DNA of 64,000 nucleotides from Chitinophagaceae bacterium IBVUCB1 (lineage in GTDB: Bacteria; Bacteroidota; Bacteroidia; Chitinophagales; Chitinophagaceae). The DNA lies in NCBI GenBank assembly GCA_002127285.1, contig NFUW01000002.1:1151630-1215629 (forward strand), written 5' to 3'. Of this stretch, positions 37,961 through 48,276 are shown in pieces. How positions within the stretch are numbered: position 1 is the first letter of the stretch; every line of letters starts with the position of its first letter. The notes beneath the pieces were generated by a model, which was given only the letters and a program-made list of their open reading frames with translations, was not told the DNA's origin and did no database searches. A program made the position numbers and the translations under genes.

Positions 37961-38005
37961 GAGGAGTGAGGAATGAGGAGTGAGGAGTGAGGAGTGAGGA
38001 GTGAG
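37961..38005. repeat. Heptamer tandem repeat (GAGGAGT)
   Basis: Six tandem copies of a 7-bp unit run from 37961 to 38002, the second being GAGGAAT, plus a partial seventh. They lie between rimM and the 38088 gene, a stretch with no coding potential that I can see. Confidence 0.9.
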
Positions 38006-38057
38006 TTAAAAATAAAGGATGATTATAACTAAGGTCTTACTCCTTATACCTAATATA

Positions 38058-38090
38058 TACTTTCTACTCGCTACTAAATACTTTCTACTA
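38058..38090 (+). repeat. Two inverted copies of the rimM-flanking repeat (right flank)
   Basis: TACTTTCTACT at 38058-38068 and TACTTTCTACTA at 38079-38090 are the reverse complements of the repeats at 37282 and 37309. Confidence 0.6.
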
Positions 38091-42953: not shown

Positions 42954-45900
42954 TTATTTATAATTGGCATTATAAAACTGCAGATAGGCTTTCATATCTT
43001 TTTCTGCTACCAATTTGATGTAGTTGGTTGCTGAGATAGGTATTATCTGGTATTCGCTCTGTTGATACTCACGGAATATCTGCCCCGTAGCCCGTAGCGA
43101 ATTGATATAGATACGCGCTGCTGCCAGATTGCGGAACGATTTGGTCGTTATAATGCTTTGGCTGGATGTTAGCGGAGTTTGGTCGGTCGTTAGTTTCAGT
43201 TCGTTAAACTTAAAGCTGTTGAAATCACTCATCGCTGCCTTCACTCCGGATGAACGCTGGTCTGTAGCCCCGAACACGAACATCACATAATGCTCCTCTA
43301 CCTGCTTGTAGGTATAGGCAGCAGGTATGGGTGTAGCAGGCACATCTGCCATACCAGTAGCATCTGCCATTTTAGGTATAGGTGCTTTAGATGCTGCCGA
43401 TGTATCTGCGGCACTTCCACCTGCTTTCACCTCACCGGTTATCGGCGAGCCGCCCGATATTTTGGGCCTGCTGTCTTGTATATATTTCAATACCGCATCT
43501 GCCCACGGGCGCAGCGAATCTTTGGGATAACTGCTGATGAATTGGCGCACCAAAGTATCTGCCTCGTCGTGTTTCTTCATGCAGGCAAGTGTCAGCCCTT
43601 CCAATATAGTATAGCGTTTGGTGTAGCGTGGATTGCTGTAGTTTGTTTTCGCCAGCAATATGTTGCGCATTGCAGCATCGCATTGCCTGTCCAACACCAT
43701 ATTATAGGTTTCTTCGTAGATGCGTGCCACCTCTTCGTCTGTAACCATCGCCATGCCTTTGCTTTCAGACGGCTTTACTAATGGTGCCCACTTACTATTG
43801 GGGTACAGGGTTATCAGGTCGTTGGCATATCGTTTGGCATCTTCCAGCCTGTTTTGCCTGATGGCTATCAGGTAGCGCACGTATAGTTCCTCAGCTTTAT
43901 GCTCATGGTTAGGGAAACGTTTATTCAGGGTGTCTAAGTTTTTGATGGCAGGCGGATAGTCTTCCAAATCTTTCACATATGCATTGGCTACATCCATATA
44001 CGCACGTCTTATGCCAAAACGCAACTCTTCTATCGCTTCTTCGTTTTTGGGTATCAATGCTATCAGGGCTTCTTCCGTCGGCAATCCGTTTTCATCGCGC
44101 TCTATATCGTCTTCTGCATTTGCCGTCGTGTTAGTGTTATTCGTTGCACTGCTATTGCCCGATGCTGCCGCGCTGCGCCGCCAGTTATCTGCCAGTTGGC
44201 GATTGCCCCACTTGCGTTTGAATTCGTTAATGCCTTGCTGCACCAGTACAGGGTTGGCAAAATACCAGTTGGTATACGGATTGCTCTTATCGCCACCGTT
44301 GTTGGTATTGCCTGCACCGCCGCCACCACCTTGCGCCGTCGGGTTTTCTGCCTTAAAGATGCTGTCTGCACGTTGCTGCTCCAGTTTGCGGATGTATTTC
44401 CTTACTTCGGCACGCATGTCTTTATCGCTCATCATGCCAAGCGCTATCAGGCTATCGTTTGTTTTTATCAGCAGCAATGGGTTGGTGATGCTGGTAAGTG
44501 CCATGCTGCGTTTTACGGCAAGCAAAGCAAGGCTGTCGTTGGGCAGCACATTAGCAAGTGCCGCCGCACTGTCGTAGGCCGACTTAGCATCCACATACCT
44601 GCCCGCATTATAATATATACCTCCCAGCGTAGCATAAGACAATACTTTTTGCTTAGGCGTAGTGCGCGATGATTGCAAGCCCTGCGACAAATAACTGATA
44701 GCATCTTCGTTATTACCCGCATTGGCAGACAGCCTGCCGAGTACATAATACACTTGTTCGTAGTAGGGTGTGTACTTACCGTCTTTCAATACTTTTTTCA
44801 GCGACGCGATGGTTTCGCCTTGGTCGCCACCTGCATACATCAGGCTATTCGCCATATTCTTTCTTGCCTGAAAATCCATTTCAATTTTCGGGTTCAGGTC
44901 TATTACTTTTTTGAAGCTGGCTGCCGATGCGGCGTACTCGCCACGGCTCTGCTGTATCTGCCCCGCTATAAAGGCGGCGCGCATCTGTACCCAGTCGGGC
45001 AATTCCCTATCATTAGCTGCTATTACTAATTGGTCGGCTGCGGCTTTACGGTCGTTTTGCTGCAGGTAGATGAAGGCTTTCTCTAATGCCAGCCTTCCTT
45101 GCAGCTCTTTGGGGAAGTTGGGGTCTGTTTCCAGCAAGTCAAGAACCGATTCTGCATTACCTTCTTGTTTCATCTGTGTGTAAGTACGCGATAGCCATAA
45201 CAAAGCCTCATTGTGTACGGTATGGTGCTTCAAAAAGTCGAAGAATACTTTTTTATCTTTTTGAGCAATGGATAATTCCTTACCAGCCTTCTTTGTATAT
45301 ACACTGCTATTATCGTTAGGCTTTCTCTTCTTATCTCGCAGGGTGAGTTCGTACCTGAATGCCGCCGATGCTTCTTTATAATTGCCCTTGTAATAATATG
45401 CCTGCCCCAGCAACAGATACAGGTCATCTCCCCACTTGGTACGCGGGTCGTGTAGCTGTATGCCAATGGATGCTTTGTATATGATACTATCCATATCTGC
45501 CGACAACATAGCAGAGTCCTTATCGGGGTTGAAGGGGAATAATGCCAATAGTGAGTCGTAATTATCTTTCTTCGTTCGCAGCATATTGGCTATCGCCTCA
45601 TCCATCTTCCTGTCTGCGTTGAAGTAGTAGTTGTAATGCGTAAAGGTATTTTGCACTATACGCCGCGGCACGCTCCACCGTTTTTTCAGCATCTTCTCGT
45701 TGGTGTAGGCTTTTTGCTTTTTCTTAATCTTCAGTTCAAATGCCAGTTGTTGTTTCTGTTCCCGTTCTTTCTCTTTTGCCTTTAACGCTTTCTCTCTTTT
45801 TTCTTTCACTTTGGCAAGACTGTCGCTACTCAGTTTGCGCTTACCTGCAAGGCTATCCGTTTTCACCTTGCGTGTTTTGGCAAGGCTATCGGTTTTGGCT

Positions 45901-46715
45901 TTGCGCAGCTTCGCAAAGCTGTCTGCCTTTGCTTTGCGGCCTTTTGCAAGGCTGTCATTAAATATTTTTCGCTTTTTCGTAATGCTGTCCATCCGCATTT
46001 TCTTCACTACGGCTACACTATCGGCAAAGCGTTTGCTTTCTCTGTATTTGCGACGTGCCGTCAGGCTATCGGTTCTTTTTTTCTGTATAGCGCGCACACT
46101 GTCCATGCTTTTCTTGCGTATGGCTATGGCACTATCAGTAGTCTTTTTGCGCACTGCTTTGGCACTATCCAGTTTTGCCAGCCTTACGGTTTGCAGGGCT
46201 TTAGCTTTTGCCATCCTTGCCTTCTCTACACTATCCGTATATCGCTTGCTTTCTTTGTATTTGCGTATGGCTGTCAGGCTATCCGTACGGCGTTTGCGTA
46301 TCTTGGCTATGCTATCGGCACTGCGCTGGCGGCTTGCCTTCAGGCTGTCTGTATAGCGTTTTTGCTGTGCCTGCCTTGCGGCTGTTTCTTTGGCTCTTGC
46401 TTTGGCAAGGCTGTCGCGGCTTTTTTCCTGTTGCTTGCGCTGGGCTTCCTGCGCTATGGCTTTTTCTTTTGCAGCAGCCTCTTTGGCTTTTTCGTTTTGC
46501 TTGCGTGCGGCGGTTATACTGTCTTGTTTTTGCTGTTGCTGTTTGGCCTTTTCTTTGGCAGCGGTTTCTTTGGCTTTTTCAGCTTCCTGCTGCTGTTTGC
46601 GCACGGCAGCAAGGCTGTCTTTGTTACTGCTTCTGTTTTGGGCAATAGCTAATTGGCTGCCCGCCATGCTGCAACATAGTATGATGATAAAAAATAATAT
46701 TTTACGAGGGCTCAA
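42954..46715 (-). CDS. PorW/SprE-like T9SS protein with hendecad Asp-Ser repeat extension
   Basis: A 1253-residue protein with a signal peptide (SPRKILFF then a hydrophobic core, ending LAIAQ). A 300-residue highly charged helical region comes next, with an 11-residue repeat carrying one Asp-Ser each, phased from Asp101 to Asp298. The RRIVQNTFTHYNYYFNADRK segment and the Lys-Asp-Tyr block after it match the PorW/SprE family of T9SS proteins as I recall it. TPR-type repeats and a C-terminal domain follow. No ATG is near the N-terminus; the TTG at 46715 is chosen because it opens onto the signal peptide (a TTG at 46757 is also possible). PorW links to the motor/translocon of T9SS. There is no clear lipobox, unlike PorW of Porphyromonas. 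Confidence 0.75.
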   Translation of the reverse strand: MSPRKILFFIIILCCSMAGSQLAIAQNRSSNKDSLAAVRKQQQEAEKAKETAAKEKAKQQQQKQDSITAARKQNEKAKEAAAKEKAIAQEAQRKQQEKSRDSLAKARAKETAARQAQQKRYTDSLKASRQRSADSIAKIRKRRTDSLTAIRKYKESKRYTDSVEKARMAKAKALQTVRLAKLDSAKAVRKKTTDSAIAIRKKSMDSVRAIQKKRTDSLTARRKYRESKRFADSVAVVKKMRMDSITKKRKIFNDSLAKGRKAKADSFAKLRKAKTDSLAKTRKVKTDSLAGKRKLSSDSLAKVKEKREKALKAKEKEREQKQQLAFELKIKKKQKAYTNEKMLKKRWSVPRRIVQNTFTHYNYYFNADRKMDEAIANMLRTKKDNYDSLLALFPFNPDKDSAMLSADMDSIIYKASIGIQLHDPRTKWGDDLYLLLGQAYYYKGNYKEASAAFRYELTLRDKKRKPNDNSSVYTKKAGKELSIAQKDKKVFFDFLKHHTVHNEALLWLSRTYTQMKQEGNAESVLDLLETDPNFPKELQGRLALEKAFIYLQQNDRKAAADQLVIAANDRELPDWVQMRAAFIAGQIQQSRGEYAASAASFKKVIDLNPKIEMDFQARKNMANSLMYAGGDQGETIASLKKVLKDGKYTPYYEQVYYVLGRLSANAGNNEDAISYLSQGLQSSRTTPKQKVLSYATLGGIYYNAGRYVDAKSAYDSAAALANVLPNDSLALLAVKRSMALTSITNPLLLIKTNDSLIALGMMSDKDMRAEVRKYIRKLEQQRADSIFKAENPTAQGGGGGAGNTNNGGDKSNPYTNWYFANPVLVQQGINEFKRKWGNRQLADNWRRSAAASGNSSATNNTNTTANAEDDIERDENGLPTEEALIALIPKNEEAIEELRFGIRRAYMDVANAYVKDLEDYPPAIKNLDTLNKRFPNHEHKAEELYVRYLIAIRQNRLEDAKRYANDLITLYPNSKWAPLVKPSESKGMAMVTDEEVARIYEETYNMVLDRQCDAAMRNILLAKTNYSNPRYTKRYTILEGLTLACMKKHDEADTLVRQFISSYPKDSLRPWADAVLKYIQDSRPKISGGSPITGEVKAGGSAADTSAASKAPIPKMADATGMADVPATPIPAAYTYKQVEEHYVMFVFGATDQRSSGVKAAMSDFNSFKFNELKLTTDQTPLTSSQSIITTKSFRNLAAARIYINSLRATGQIFREYQQSEYQIIPISATNYIKLVAEKDMKAYLQFYNANYK

Positions 46716-47229: not shown

Positions 47230-47688
47230 ATGAGCAAGCCGGCAAAACGCAGAGATATTTTCAAACGGCTCAATACACACTACCGTTTGGTGTTTATTGA
47301 CGATGTGTCTTTGCAGGAAGTCGCCTCGTTCAGATTGACGATGCGGAAACTGTACATACTATTCAGCAGCATCTTCGTATTTGTAATCGTTGTAACGGTT
47401 GCTATACTGCTGTTAACCCCTCTTAAGTATTACATACCCGGCTACGCAGGTGGCAGCGACAGGCGCGAGATTATACAGTTGAAACACACGGTTGATTCCC
47501 TTGCCGATTTAACCGCCGCACAAGAAGCGTTTTATAACAATATGCGCGATGTAATATCGGGCGATGTAAAAACAAAACGCGATACCGCTATGCTGGATAT
47601 GAAACGTGTGAATCAGGAAGCGATGAACAACCTCGTACCTATGAATGATGAAATAAAAAAAGGTGCATTGCAACCTGCAAAAAAATAA
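47230..47688 (+). CDS. Membrane protein resembling the N-terminal part of Bacteroidota M23 peptidases
   Basis: A 152-residue protein. A polar N-terminus (HYRLVFIDDVSLQEVASFRL) leads into one transmembrane helix (about residues 40-63), then TPLKYYIPGY and an external charged, partly coiled segment. The N-terminal half looks like the start of M23-type cell-wall peptidases that I know in this phylum, but no M23 catalytic domain (HxxxD, HxH) follows, in this or other frames. The stop at 47688 is 5 nt before the AtpZ-like GTG, so the genes are probably cotranscribed. Either a stand-alone membrane factor or a truncated peptidase. Confidence 0.7.
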   Translation: MSKPAKRRDIFKRLNTHYRLVFIDDVSLQEVASFRLTMRKLYILFSSIFVFVIVVTVAILLLTPLKYYIPGYAGGSDRREIIQLKHTVDSLADLTAAQEAFYNNMRDVISGDVKTKRDTAMLDMKRVNQEAMNNLVPMNDEIKKGALQPAKK

Positions 47689-47692
47689 AGCA

Positions 47693-47905
47693 GTGAAAAA
47701 CGAAAAGCCAACCAATAGCATGATGCGCTATGCAGGCCTCGCAACACAATGGATGGTGATGCTGGCATTGGCAGTATGGGCAGGTTGGTGGCTCGACAAA
47801 CAAACAGGATGGAAGTTTCCGTTGTTCATCGTATCGCTGCCGCTGATAGCTTTATGCGTATCGCTGTGGCAGTTGGTAAAAGAATTTAATACACCGAAAA
47901 AATGA
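47693..47905 (+). CDS. AtpZ/AtpI-family small membrane protein
   Basis: A 70-residue protein with two hydrophobic helices and a loop with WWLDKQTGWKFPLF, the pattern of AtpZ/AtpI proteins associated with F-type ATP synthase assembly. The GTG at 47693 is preferred, 5 nt after the previous stop; an ATG at 47663 would overlap that gene by 26 nt. Its stop overlaps the next start (ATGA). The main ATP synthase genes are not in this window, so the pair is detached from atpB-atpE-atpF here. Confidence 0.75.
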   Translation: MKNEKPTNSMMRYAGLATQWMVMLALAVWAGWWLDKQTGWKFPLFIVSLPLIALCVSLWQLVKEFNTPKK

Positions 47906-48276
47906 GTAAACAATTTTTGATAACCACCATCGTAGCTTTTGCCATACTTACAGGCATATTTCTGTATATGAAGACTGCTGCCCCTGCGTTTGACTTTGCT
48001 GCTATGATGGGTGGCAATATACTGATGGTGGTATTGTCATCGGTTAGTTATTTGATGGTTACCAAACAAATAAAGAGCCGCCCCGAAGCGTTTGTTAGAG
48101 GGGTGTATTCGGGTACATTTCTGAAACTGTTAGTGTGTATGGCTGCTATATTGATATATGTAATGGCCAATAAACCCAACATACATAAGCCCACGTTGTT
48201 TGTGCTGTTCGGCATCTACATCGTTTACACAGTTATCGAAACAACTACATTATCTAAATTGGCAAGAGTGAAGTGA
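47902..48276 (+). CDS. Small membrane protein linked to the AtpZ-like gene
   Basis: A 124-residue protein with four hydrophobic segments. It overlaps the AtpZ-like stop by 4 nt (ATGA), so translation is probably coupled. In Bacteroidota an unnamed membrane protein often lies between AtpZ and the ATP synthase a subunit; this one matches that position and topology. The C-terminus (YIVYTVIETTTLSKLARVK) ends in a basic tail. Confidence 0.7.
   Translation: MSKQFLITTIVAFAILTGIFLYMKTAAPAFDFAAMMGGNILMVVLSSVSYLMVTKQIKSRPEAFVRGVYSGTFLKLLVCMAAILIYVMANKPNIHKPTLFVLFGIYIVYTVIETTTLSKLARVK

Follow-up and report, generated by a model that had tools for sequence, protein, structure and literature searches.

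PorW/SprE is a periplasmic lipoprotein of the type IX secretion system (T9SS), and in Chitinophagaceae bacterium IBVUCB1 its conserved core is preceded by a long series of Asp-Ser (DS) pairs set at near-regular intervals; the question that this locus raises is what the series is and what it may do. The gene lies in a 64,000-nucleotide stretch, referred to here as the window (GenBank assembly GCA_002127285.1, contig NFUW01000002.1, positions 1,151,630 to 1,215,629 of the forward strand), and residues are numbered from TTG 46715. The identity of the protein, proposed in a preliminary description of the window, was confirmed by the NCBIfam equivalog profile NF052312, which scored 431.3 bits against a cut-off of 250 with its best stretch at residues 497-1072. 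The solved SprE chain, PDB 8gl8_I, covered residues 524-1048 (E 1.5e-24), and tetratricopeptide repeat (TPR) families of Pfam were also found in the protein (TPR_2, E 6.6e-15, and others). SprA, the only T9SS gene searched for besides SprE, is encoded in the same genome (TIGR04189, 2568.8 bits against a cut-off of 200). The window protein thus has the orthologous TPR core of known PorW/SprE proteins (NF052312; 8gl8 chain I) and SprA in its genome, but adds about 300 residues of predicted, jointed DS-hendecad helix before the core, and its lipobox is doubtful. We propose, with a probability a little under one half, that this addition is an 11/3-helical arm of SprE that is divided by joints and carries O-glycans in a ladder. 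The architecture of the arm (repeat, conservation, joints and fixed spacings) is well supported, and the glycosylation of its DS sites is what we infer from the sequence.

In the window protein, DS pairs start at residues 33, 65, 101, 123, 134, 145, 161, 183, 194, 205, 216, 232, 243, 254, 265, 276, 287 and 298. A recount recovered every position listed in the preliminary description, as well as the same local sequence that it had noted at both 16-residue steps. Its spacing of 11 and its two steps of 16 also stood, but from Asp101 onwards there are two steps of 22 (101 to 123 and 161 to 183), only one of which follows Asp123, so that two in-phase units lack a DS; likewise, the span that it gave, 45861-46415, covers the repeat in part but is too short, leaving DS287 (45857-45852) and DS298 (45824-45819) outside. 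Eleven of the 17 successive DS distances equal 11, whereas 20,000 shuffles of residues 21-330 with the DS pairs kept intact reached five at most (in 10 shuffles). The residue autocorrelation of the arm was 0.30 at lag 11, compared with 0.07-0.13 at lags 1-10 and 12-16. Tandem Repeats Finder reported no 33-base array over the DS region, and the arm used as a protein query matched only itself in the genome. We also inspected a 464 kb sample of the genome (the window plus 20 other stretches, about 14% of the genome, with genes and signal peptides called by simple rules), and none of the other predicted proteins with at least eight Asp-Ser or Asp-Thr (DT) pairs among its 369 genes had repeated 11-residue spacing.

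The SprE core (residues 346-1253), used as the query, had a match in each of 15 genomes from the genus, one of them that of the window, and in 231 of 244 genomes of the family. We read 81 N-termini, including that of the window: 15 from the genus, 26 from other loci of the family, and 40 from further family matches, which were taken first by score (with some fragments and near relatives passed over) and then spread. Of the 231 family matches, 70 are represented in this set, which also holds 11 congeners; the remaining 161 matches stand outside the counts, and two of them (G045 and G204) also carry the array. An array of at least nine DS was present in 60 of the 81 N-termini, from 21 genera, with the 11-residue phase conserved and the repeat number varying from 9 to 25 DS. 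The other 21 N-termini are short forms with no more than one DS before the core, and they come from 18 genera, all different from the 21 that have the array; these many relatives without an extension agree with the earlier view that the arm is unusual for PorW-type proteins. Named relatives are Chitinophagaceae bacterium LGM1, Taibaiella soli, and metagenome-assembled genomes (MAGs) of Flavipsychrobacter, an uncultured Taibaiella and a member of the Bacteroidetes. These results indicate that the Asp-Ser repeat is real, conserved and far beyond chance, and that a single family has two or more forms of a core T9SS component, one of them with a 300-residue jointed arm.

A profile built from 13 of the DS-bearing arms (rods) matched 11 of 298 genomes at the order level (E 1e-6), nine of the matches being SprE rods, and 14 of 395 genomes at the phylum level (E 1e-3), two of them SprE rods; all of these rods belong to the same family. 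No SprE rod was found outside the family by this profile, whose sensitivity was not measured, at either level, and its other matches (2 and 12, respectively) are due to chance or to unrelated proteins with repeats or linkers. When a tree was built from the first 175 residues of the core, two changes were required to place the rods, and one change in 44% of bootstrap trees; a single origin of the arm would be compatible with the core tree, as would two changes.

The units were then compared across 50 non-redundant rods. The 453 units gave the 11-residue consensus D S [LVITMA] x x [VAI] R K x x x, with Arg at position 7 in 81% and Lys at position 8 in 57%. In 66-residue segments the hydrophobic moment peaked at 98 degrees per residue (0.77), which is the angle of an 11/3 helix, and was 0.71 at 100, 0.41 at 102 and 0.26 at 104 degrees, in agreement with the hendecad-type helical period suggested in the preliminary description. 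Gly (0.3%) and Pro (0.1%) are rare among rod residues, the mature window arm has a net charge of +64 over 320 residues, and in the 11/3-helix geometry computed from the unit profile the side facing away from the nonpolar stripe is where Asp lies.

The steps of 16 residues turned out to be a conserved, regularly spaced joint. Their signature, approximately DSLAAIRKY[KR]ES[KR][RHK]Y, has Tyr in 88%, Ser in 92% and Tyr in 81% of 84 units at places 9, 12 and 15, respectively. A simple joint pattern was found in all 60 rods (two joints in 43, one in 15 and three in 2) and in none of the 21 short forms. The distance from joint to joint is 71 residues in 41 of the 45 rods with at least two joints and 89 in the other four, and that from the last joint to the core is 114 residues in 45 of the 60 rods and 103-232 in the other 15; the common distances, 71 and 114, each span 15 genera. 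The distance from the first DS to the first joint ranges from 16 to 202 residues with 29 distinct values among the 60 rods, a range widened by a few frames that are truncated by the end of a contig or have a DS before the true start (L021, L031, L044 and L062). Because 71 and 114 dominate and the first distance takes so many values, the arm consists of two segments nearly fixed in length and a variable N-terminal part. The 18-residue steps of one rod (L054) raised the idea of a mirror-symmetric hairpin, but in both segments the insert has the same position when counted from the C-terminal end and is not mirrored, which argues for duplicated segments and leaves the hairpin unproved.

AlphaFold models agree with this division. 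The window protein was predicted as three helices (33-154, 157-225 and 233-344), and so was the Taibaiella soli protein (17-72, 74-143 and 151-263), with the breaks falling at the Ser of the Glu-Ser pair, or starting at that pair, in both joints of both proteins. In the window model, the predicted local distance difference test score (pLDDT) was 87 for the block at joint 1 and 58-60 around joint 2. The arm is therefore unlikely to be the continuous, rigid rod that had been suggested earlier, since both models break at both 16-residue units. Foldseek searches with the two models returned nothing under E 0.001, the matches being mainly to TPR and other helical-repeat proteins; the rod profile reached a best E of 0.16 against PDB sequences, and no Pfam family matched the arm up to E 10.

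The kept D-S-[AILVMT] triplet, which the preliminary description had missed, matches the O-glycosylation sequon of Bacteroidota. As described in excerpts of two papers (PMC8729774; PMC12871550), exported proteins across the phylum are O-glycosylated at D(S/T)(A/I/L/V/M/T), a motif extended to S/G/F/C; Glu cannot replace Asp in B. fragilis and seldom does so elsewhere, and there is a slight preference for Ser. The O-oligosaccharyltransferase of Bacteroidota is still undiscovered according to the excerpt of PMC12871550. SprE itself is O-glycosylated in Flavobacterium johnsoniae, and a figure legend of the same source calls this important for SprE stability (PMC10994853). In the 50 non-redundant rods, the residue after DS is A/I/L/V/M/T at 761 of 791 sites (96.2%), and at 778 when S/G/F/C are added, a few of the 791 possibly preceding the true start (e.g., in L044 and L062). 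The 18 motifs of the window protein follow the same rule in 17 cases, and the DSF at 265 fits the extended motif given in PMC8729774.

The three residues of the triplet are lost together. Among 718 in-phase units (steps of 11, 22 and 33 only), Asp and Ser were missing jointly in 100 against 18.9 expected (5.28-fold), and co-loss with the third residue was 4.05-fold for Asp and 3.65-fold for Ser, compared with 0.86- to 2.25-fold for ten control pairs. Using one rod per genus (308 units), the values were 5.38-fold for Asp and Ser, 3.35-fold for Asp and the third residue, 3.02-fold for Ser and the third residue, and 0.97- to 2.45-fold for the controls. Since this co-loss exceeds that of the control pairs, the triplet behaves largely as one motif. 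Ser is retained across both of its codon families, which are used side by side in 42 of the 50 rods, with 12% TCN. In the 464 kb sample, DS followed by a hydrophobic residue occurred at 1.86 times expectation in 84 crudely called signal-peptide proteins, 0.89 times in 171 cytoplasmic proteins and 1.72 times in 113 others. The cores of 41 SprE proteins are likewise enriched in the sequon, with 300 such DS sites against 65 expected and 117 DT sites against 44. The arm resembles the known substrates in its third residue and in its signal-peptide pattern, but differs from them in that its sites form an 11-residue ladder on predicted helices, include no Thr, and are candidates known from sequence alone.

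The export pattern deserves comment of its own. By simple rules, the window protein has a hydrophobic stretch followed by an ...AQ ending, and an ending of the form ...[ASGL]Q after the hydrophobic stretch was found in 72 of the 81 N-termini. A loose lipobox pattern was absent in 72 of the 81 and present inside the hydrophobic stretch in nine, including the ILCC of the window protein, an unusual form. The SprE proteins of this family, armed or not, therefore mostly have a type I-like signal peptide ending in ...AQ and no lipobox-like match, contrary to the excerpt of PMC8754138, in which all PorW members are said to share a lipobox. We considered the arm as a replacement for the lipid anchor, an idea weakened by the finding that 18 of the 21 armless short forms also lack a lipobox-like match; gain of the arm and loss of the anchor are for this reason not tied to each other.

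On the proposed reading, mature SprE would begin with the arm, a jointed alpha-helix that comes after the signal peptide and before the TPR core on the T9SS translocon, in the place where other SprE proteins have their lipid anchor. The helix would complete three turns in 11 residues, with a narrow nonpolar stripe at positions 3 and 6 counted from Asp, and the 16-residue joints, two in the window protein, would split it into the variable N-terminal part and the two near-fixed segments. Once SprE has been exported by Sec, the general O-glycosylation system of Bacteroidota would modify the Ser in every D-S-hydrophobic triplet, so that about 9-25 glycans would line the arm like a ladder. These glycans may stiffen and protect the very basic helix, which could then work next to the SprA pore as a strut or spacer, and the fixed segments may pack on each other or on a partner. 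A fuller version, to which we give slightly less credence, is a glyco-hendecad: the sequon would recur in nearly every repeat of the 11/3 helix, the T9SS translocon would bear a jointed, glycan-laddered arm of fixed geometry, and the modifying enzyme would take Ser and hardly Thr in helices.

Several observations weigh against glycosylation of the arm. After the first DS, the rods contain 791 DS and only 3 DT, each of the latter followed by Arg or Lys (DTR or DTK); five DT followed by a hydrophobic residue lie before the first DS, in four rods. In the 27 units that kept Asp and lost Ser, the replacement was Ala in 14 and Thr in one, as if a small residue were wanted there. Glu stands at the Asp place in 35 of 134 units without DS, and such units are also weaker at position 6 (0.83 falling to 0.53), so part of the co-loss is general decay. 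In the genome sample, DT followed by a hydrophobic residue differed little between signal-peptide (1.51-fold) and cytoplasmic proteins (1.31-fold), with 1.70-fold in the others. Two explanations offer themselves: the Ser may have a structural role, being small and adjacent to the nonpolar stripe, or the enzyme may seldom accept Thr when it lies in a helix. In signal-peptide proteins, DT made up 35 of 93 sites in helical surroundings and 49 of 82 otherwise (p 0.004, with a cut chosen after the table had been seen), and in the remaining proteins there was no drop (88 of 161 and 72 of 125, p 0.63). The DT share also falls in helical surroundings in SprE cores, to 4 of 70 sites in the most helical class, but the rods are lower still in that class, with none of 569 (p 0.0001, among related sequences), and helical context thus explains the absence of Thr only in part. 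The use of Ser alone lowers the claim that the arm is an O-glycoprotein, even if a single site need not use both residues. The models, too, are of moderate confidence (mean pLDDT 69.0 and 65.6, and predicted template-modelling scores of 0.21 and 0.23, for the window and Taibaiella soli proteins, respectively); they are monomers in which the packing of segments is not seen, and they are not independent, as six sequences were shared by the two runs.

Some of these observations favor a purely structural hendecad arm, in which Asp and Ser would be kept for packing and salt bridges (Asp1 with Lys4 and with the preceding Lys8), Ser would be the small residue beside the nonpolar stripe, and glycans would play no role. 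Such an arm accounts for the missing Thr sequons, the Ala among Ser losses, the moment at 98 degrees, the frequent Arg7 and Lys8, and the Glu at the Asp place, and the fixed segment lengths suggest packing. However, an Asp kept only for salt bridges predicts that Glu should be common beside a kept Ser, and it was seen there in 3 of the 134 units without DS; Asp, Ser and the third residue show stronger co-loss than other pairs; and the triplet is a sequon known to be used on SprE. We regard this explanation as a serious one, if rather doubtful. An amphipathic helix of 11-residue repeats that lies along the outer membrane on its inner side, replacing the lipid anchor that other SprE proteins have, is improbable. 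Alpha-synuclein and the apolipoproteins are models for such a helix, and the repeat, the net charge and the rarity of lipobox-like matches would fit it, but the short forms mostly lack both lipobox-like match and arm, the nonpolar face is narrow with Arg or Lys in 41% at its center (position 10), and the arm matches no Pfam family.

By a small degree more improbable still is a basic rod with affinity for anionic peptidoglycan or lipopolysaccharide, which is close to the peptidoglycan-spanning linker of the preliminary description; none of the present results favors a span across the peptidoglycan. The high positive charge in a protein with a signal-peptide pattern speaks for it, but there is no Pfam domain in the arm, the strict D-S is left unexplained, and glycans, if present, would shield the charge. 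Functionless low-complexity drift or a recent repeat expansion could produce the variable length of the N-terminal part, but Asp, Ser, the joints and the segment lengths are conserved from genus to genus, with variation at other positions and in codons, and Tandem Repeats Finder reported no 33-base array in the DS region; this explanation is already disfavored and very unlikely. The proposed arm is compared below with known systems.

Helices built on 11-residue repeats form a wider group, and the group 3 late embryogenesis abundant (LEA) proteins, alpha-synuclein and the apolipoproteins are 11-mer amphipathic helix families. The arm shares with hendecad coiled coils and such helices the 11/3 period and the richness in Lys and Arg, but has no Pfam match and adds the kept D-S and the conserved 16-residue joints. 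Short, charged linkers with repeated DS-hydrophobic motifs also occur elsewhere in the phylum in proteins that are not SprE; having been found with a DS-rich profile, the sample is biased towards DS. One protein from another family of the same order (L121:1132-1686, minus strand), which we take to be OmpA-like, repeats this DS hendecad in a short linker (RDSLANARKTK, RDSMAAARKAK and MDSIALARKAK in succession). In other parts of the phylum, charged linkers with several DSL or DSI were seen in presumably rhodanese-like proteins (L128, L130 and L137, the last also with DT) and in a presumably SPOR-like one (L136). A family member encodes a long repeat protein other than SprE (L120, L124 and L126 being one protein), in which 25 D[ST] pairs lie 11 residues apart inside a larger repeat.

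The features of the SprE gene are collected in Table 1. Next to it, at 47230-48276 on the plus strand, divergent neighbors encode a 152-residue protein that matches no Pfam family, an ATPase_gene1 (AtpI-like) protein, and a protein whose only match, to MgtE, is below the threshold. Elsewhere in the window, a tandem repeat of the 7-base unit GAGGAGT (about six copies) occupies 37961-38005, and another repeat lies at 38050-38089.

Table 1. Features of the PorW/SprE gene and its N-terminal arm (window positions)
Feature	Position	Strand	Remarks
PorW/SprE orthologue	42954..46715	-	1253 residues counted from TTG 46715; open reading frame open up to TTG 46757
Signal peptide, probably type I	46641..46715	-	Inferred cleavage site ...LAIA/Q, from sequence reading; loose lipobox-like ILCC inside the hydrophobic stretch
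18 Asp-Ser motifs, candidate O-glycosylation sequons	45819..46619	-	D-S-[L/I/V/A] in 17, DSF at 265; motif from excerpts of PMC8729774 and PMC12871550
N-terminal arm	46254..46619	-	Residues 33-154; length variable in homologues; AlphaFold helix 33-154
Joint 1, 16-residue unit DSLTAIRKYKESKRYT	46236..46283	-	Residues 145-160; AlphaFold helix break at 155-156
Middle segment, 55 residues (5 hendecads)	46071..46235	-	Residues 161-215; joint-to-joint distance 71 = 55 + 16
Joint 2, 16-residue unit DSLTARRKYRESKRFA	46023..46070	-	Residues 216-231; AlphaFold helix break at 226-232
Last segment	45684..46022	-	Residues 232-344; 7 DS over six hendecads, then a DS-free basic helix; AlphaFold helix 233-344
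TPR core of SprE, conserved	42957..45680	-	Residues 346-1253; NCBIfam stretch 497-1072, TPR families

PorW/SprE, the glycosylation of SprE and hendecad helices are already known. In titles and the beginnings of abstracts of open-licence papers, searches combining hendecad with type IX secretion and PorW with coiled-coil found no description of such an arm, and neither did the top-ranked entries of further literature listings. If the proposed reading is true, the arm would present glycans along a helix in a naturally regular array, in a secretion machine whose glycans matter for reasons not yet understood, and with 9-25 similar sites per chain it would offer a simple test bed for the O-oligosaccharyltransferase of Bacteroidota and its choice between Ser and Thr.

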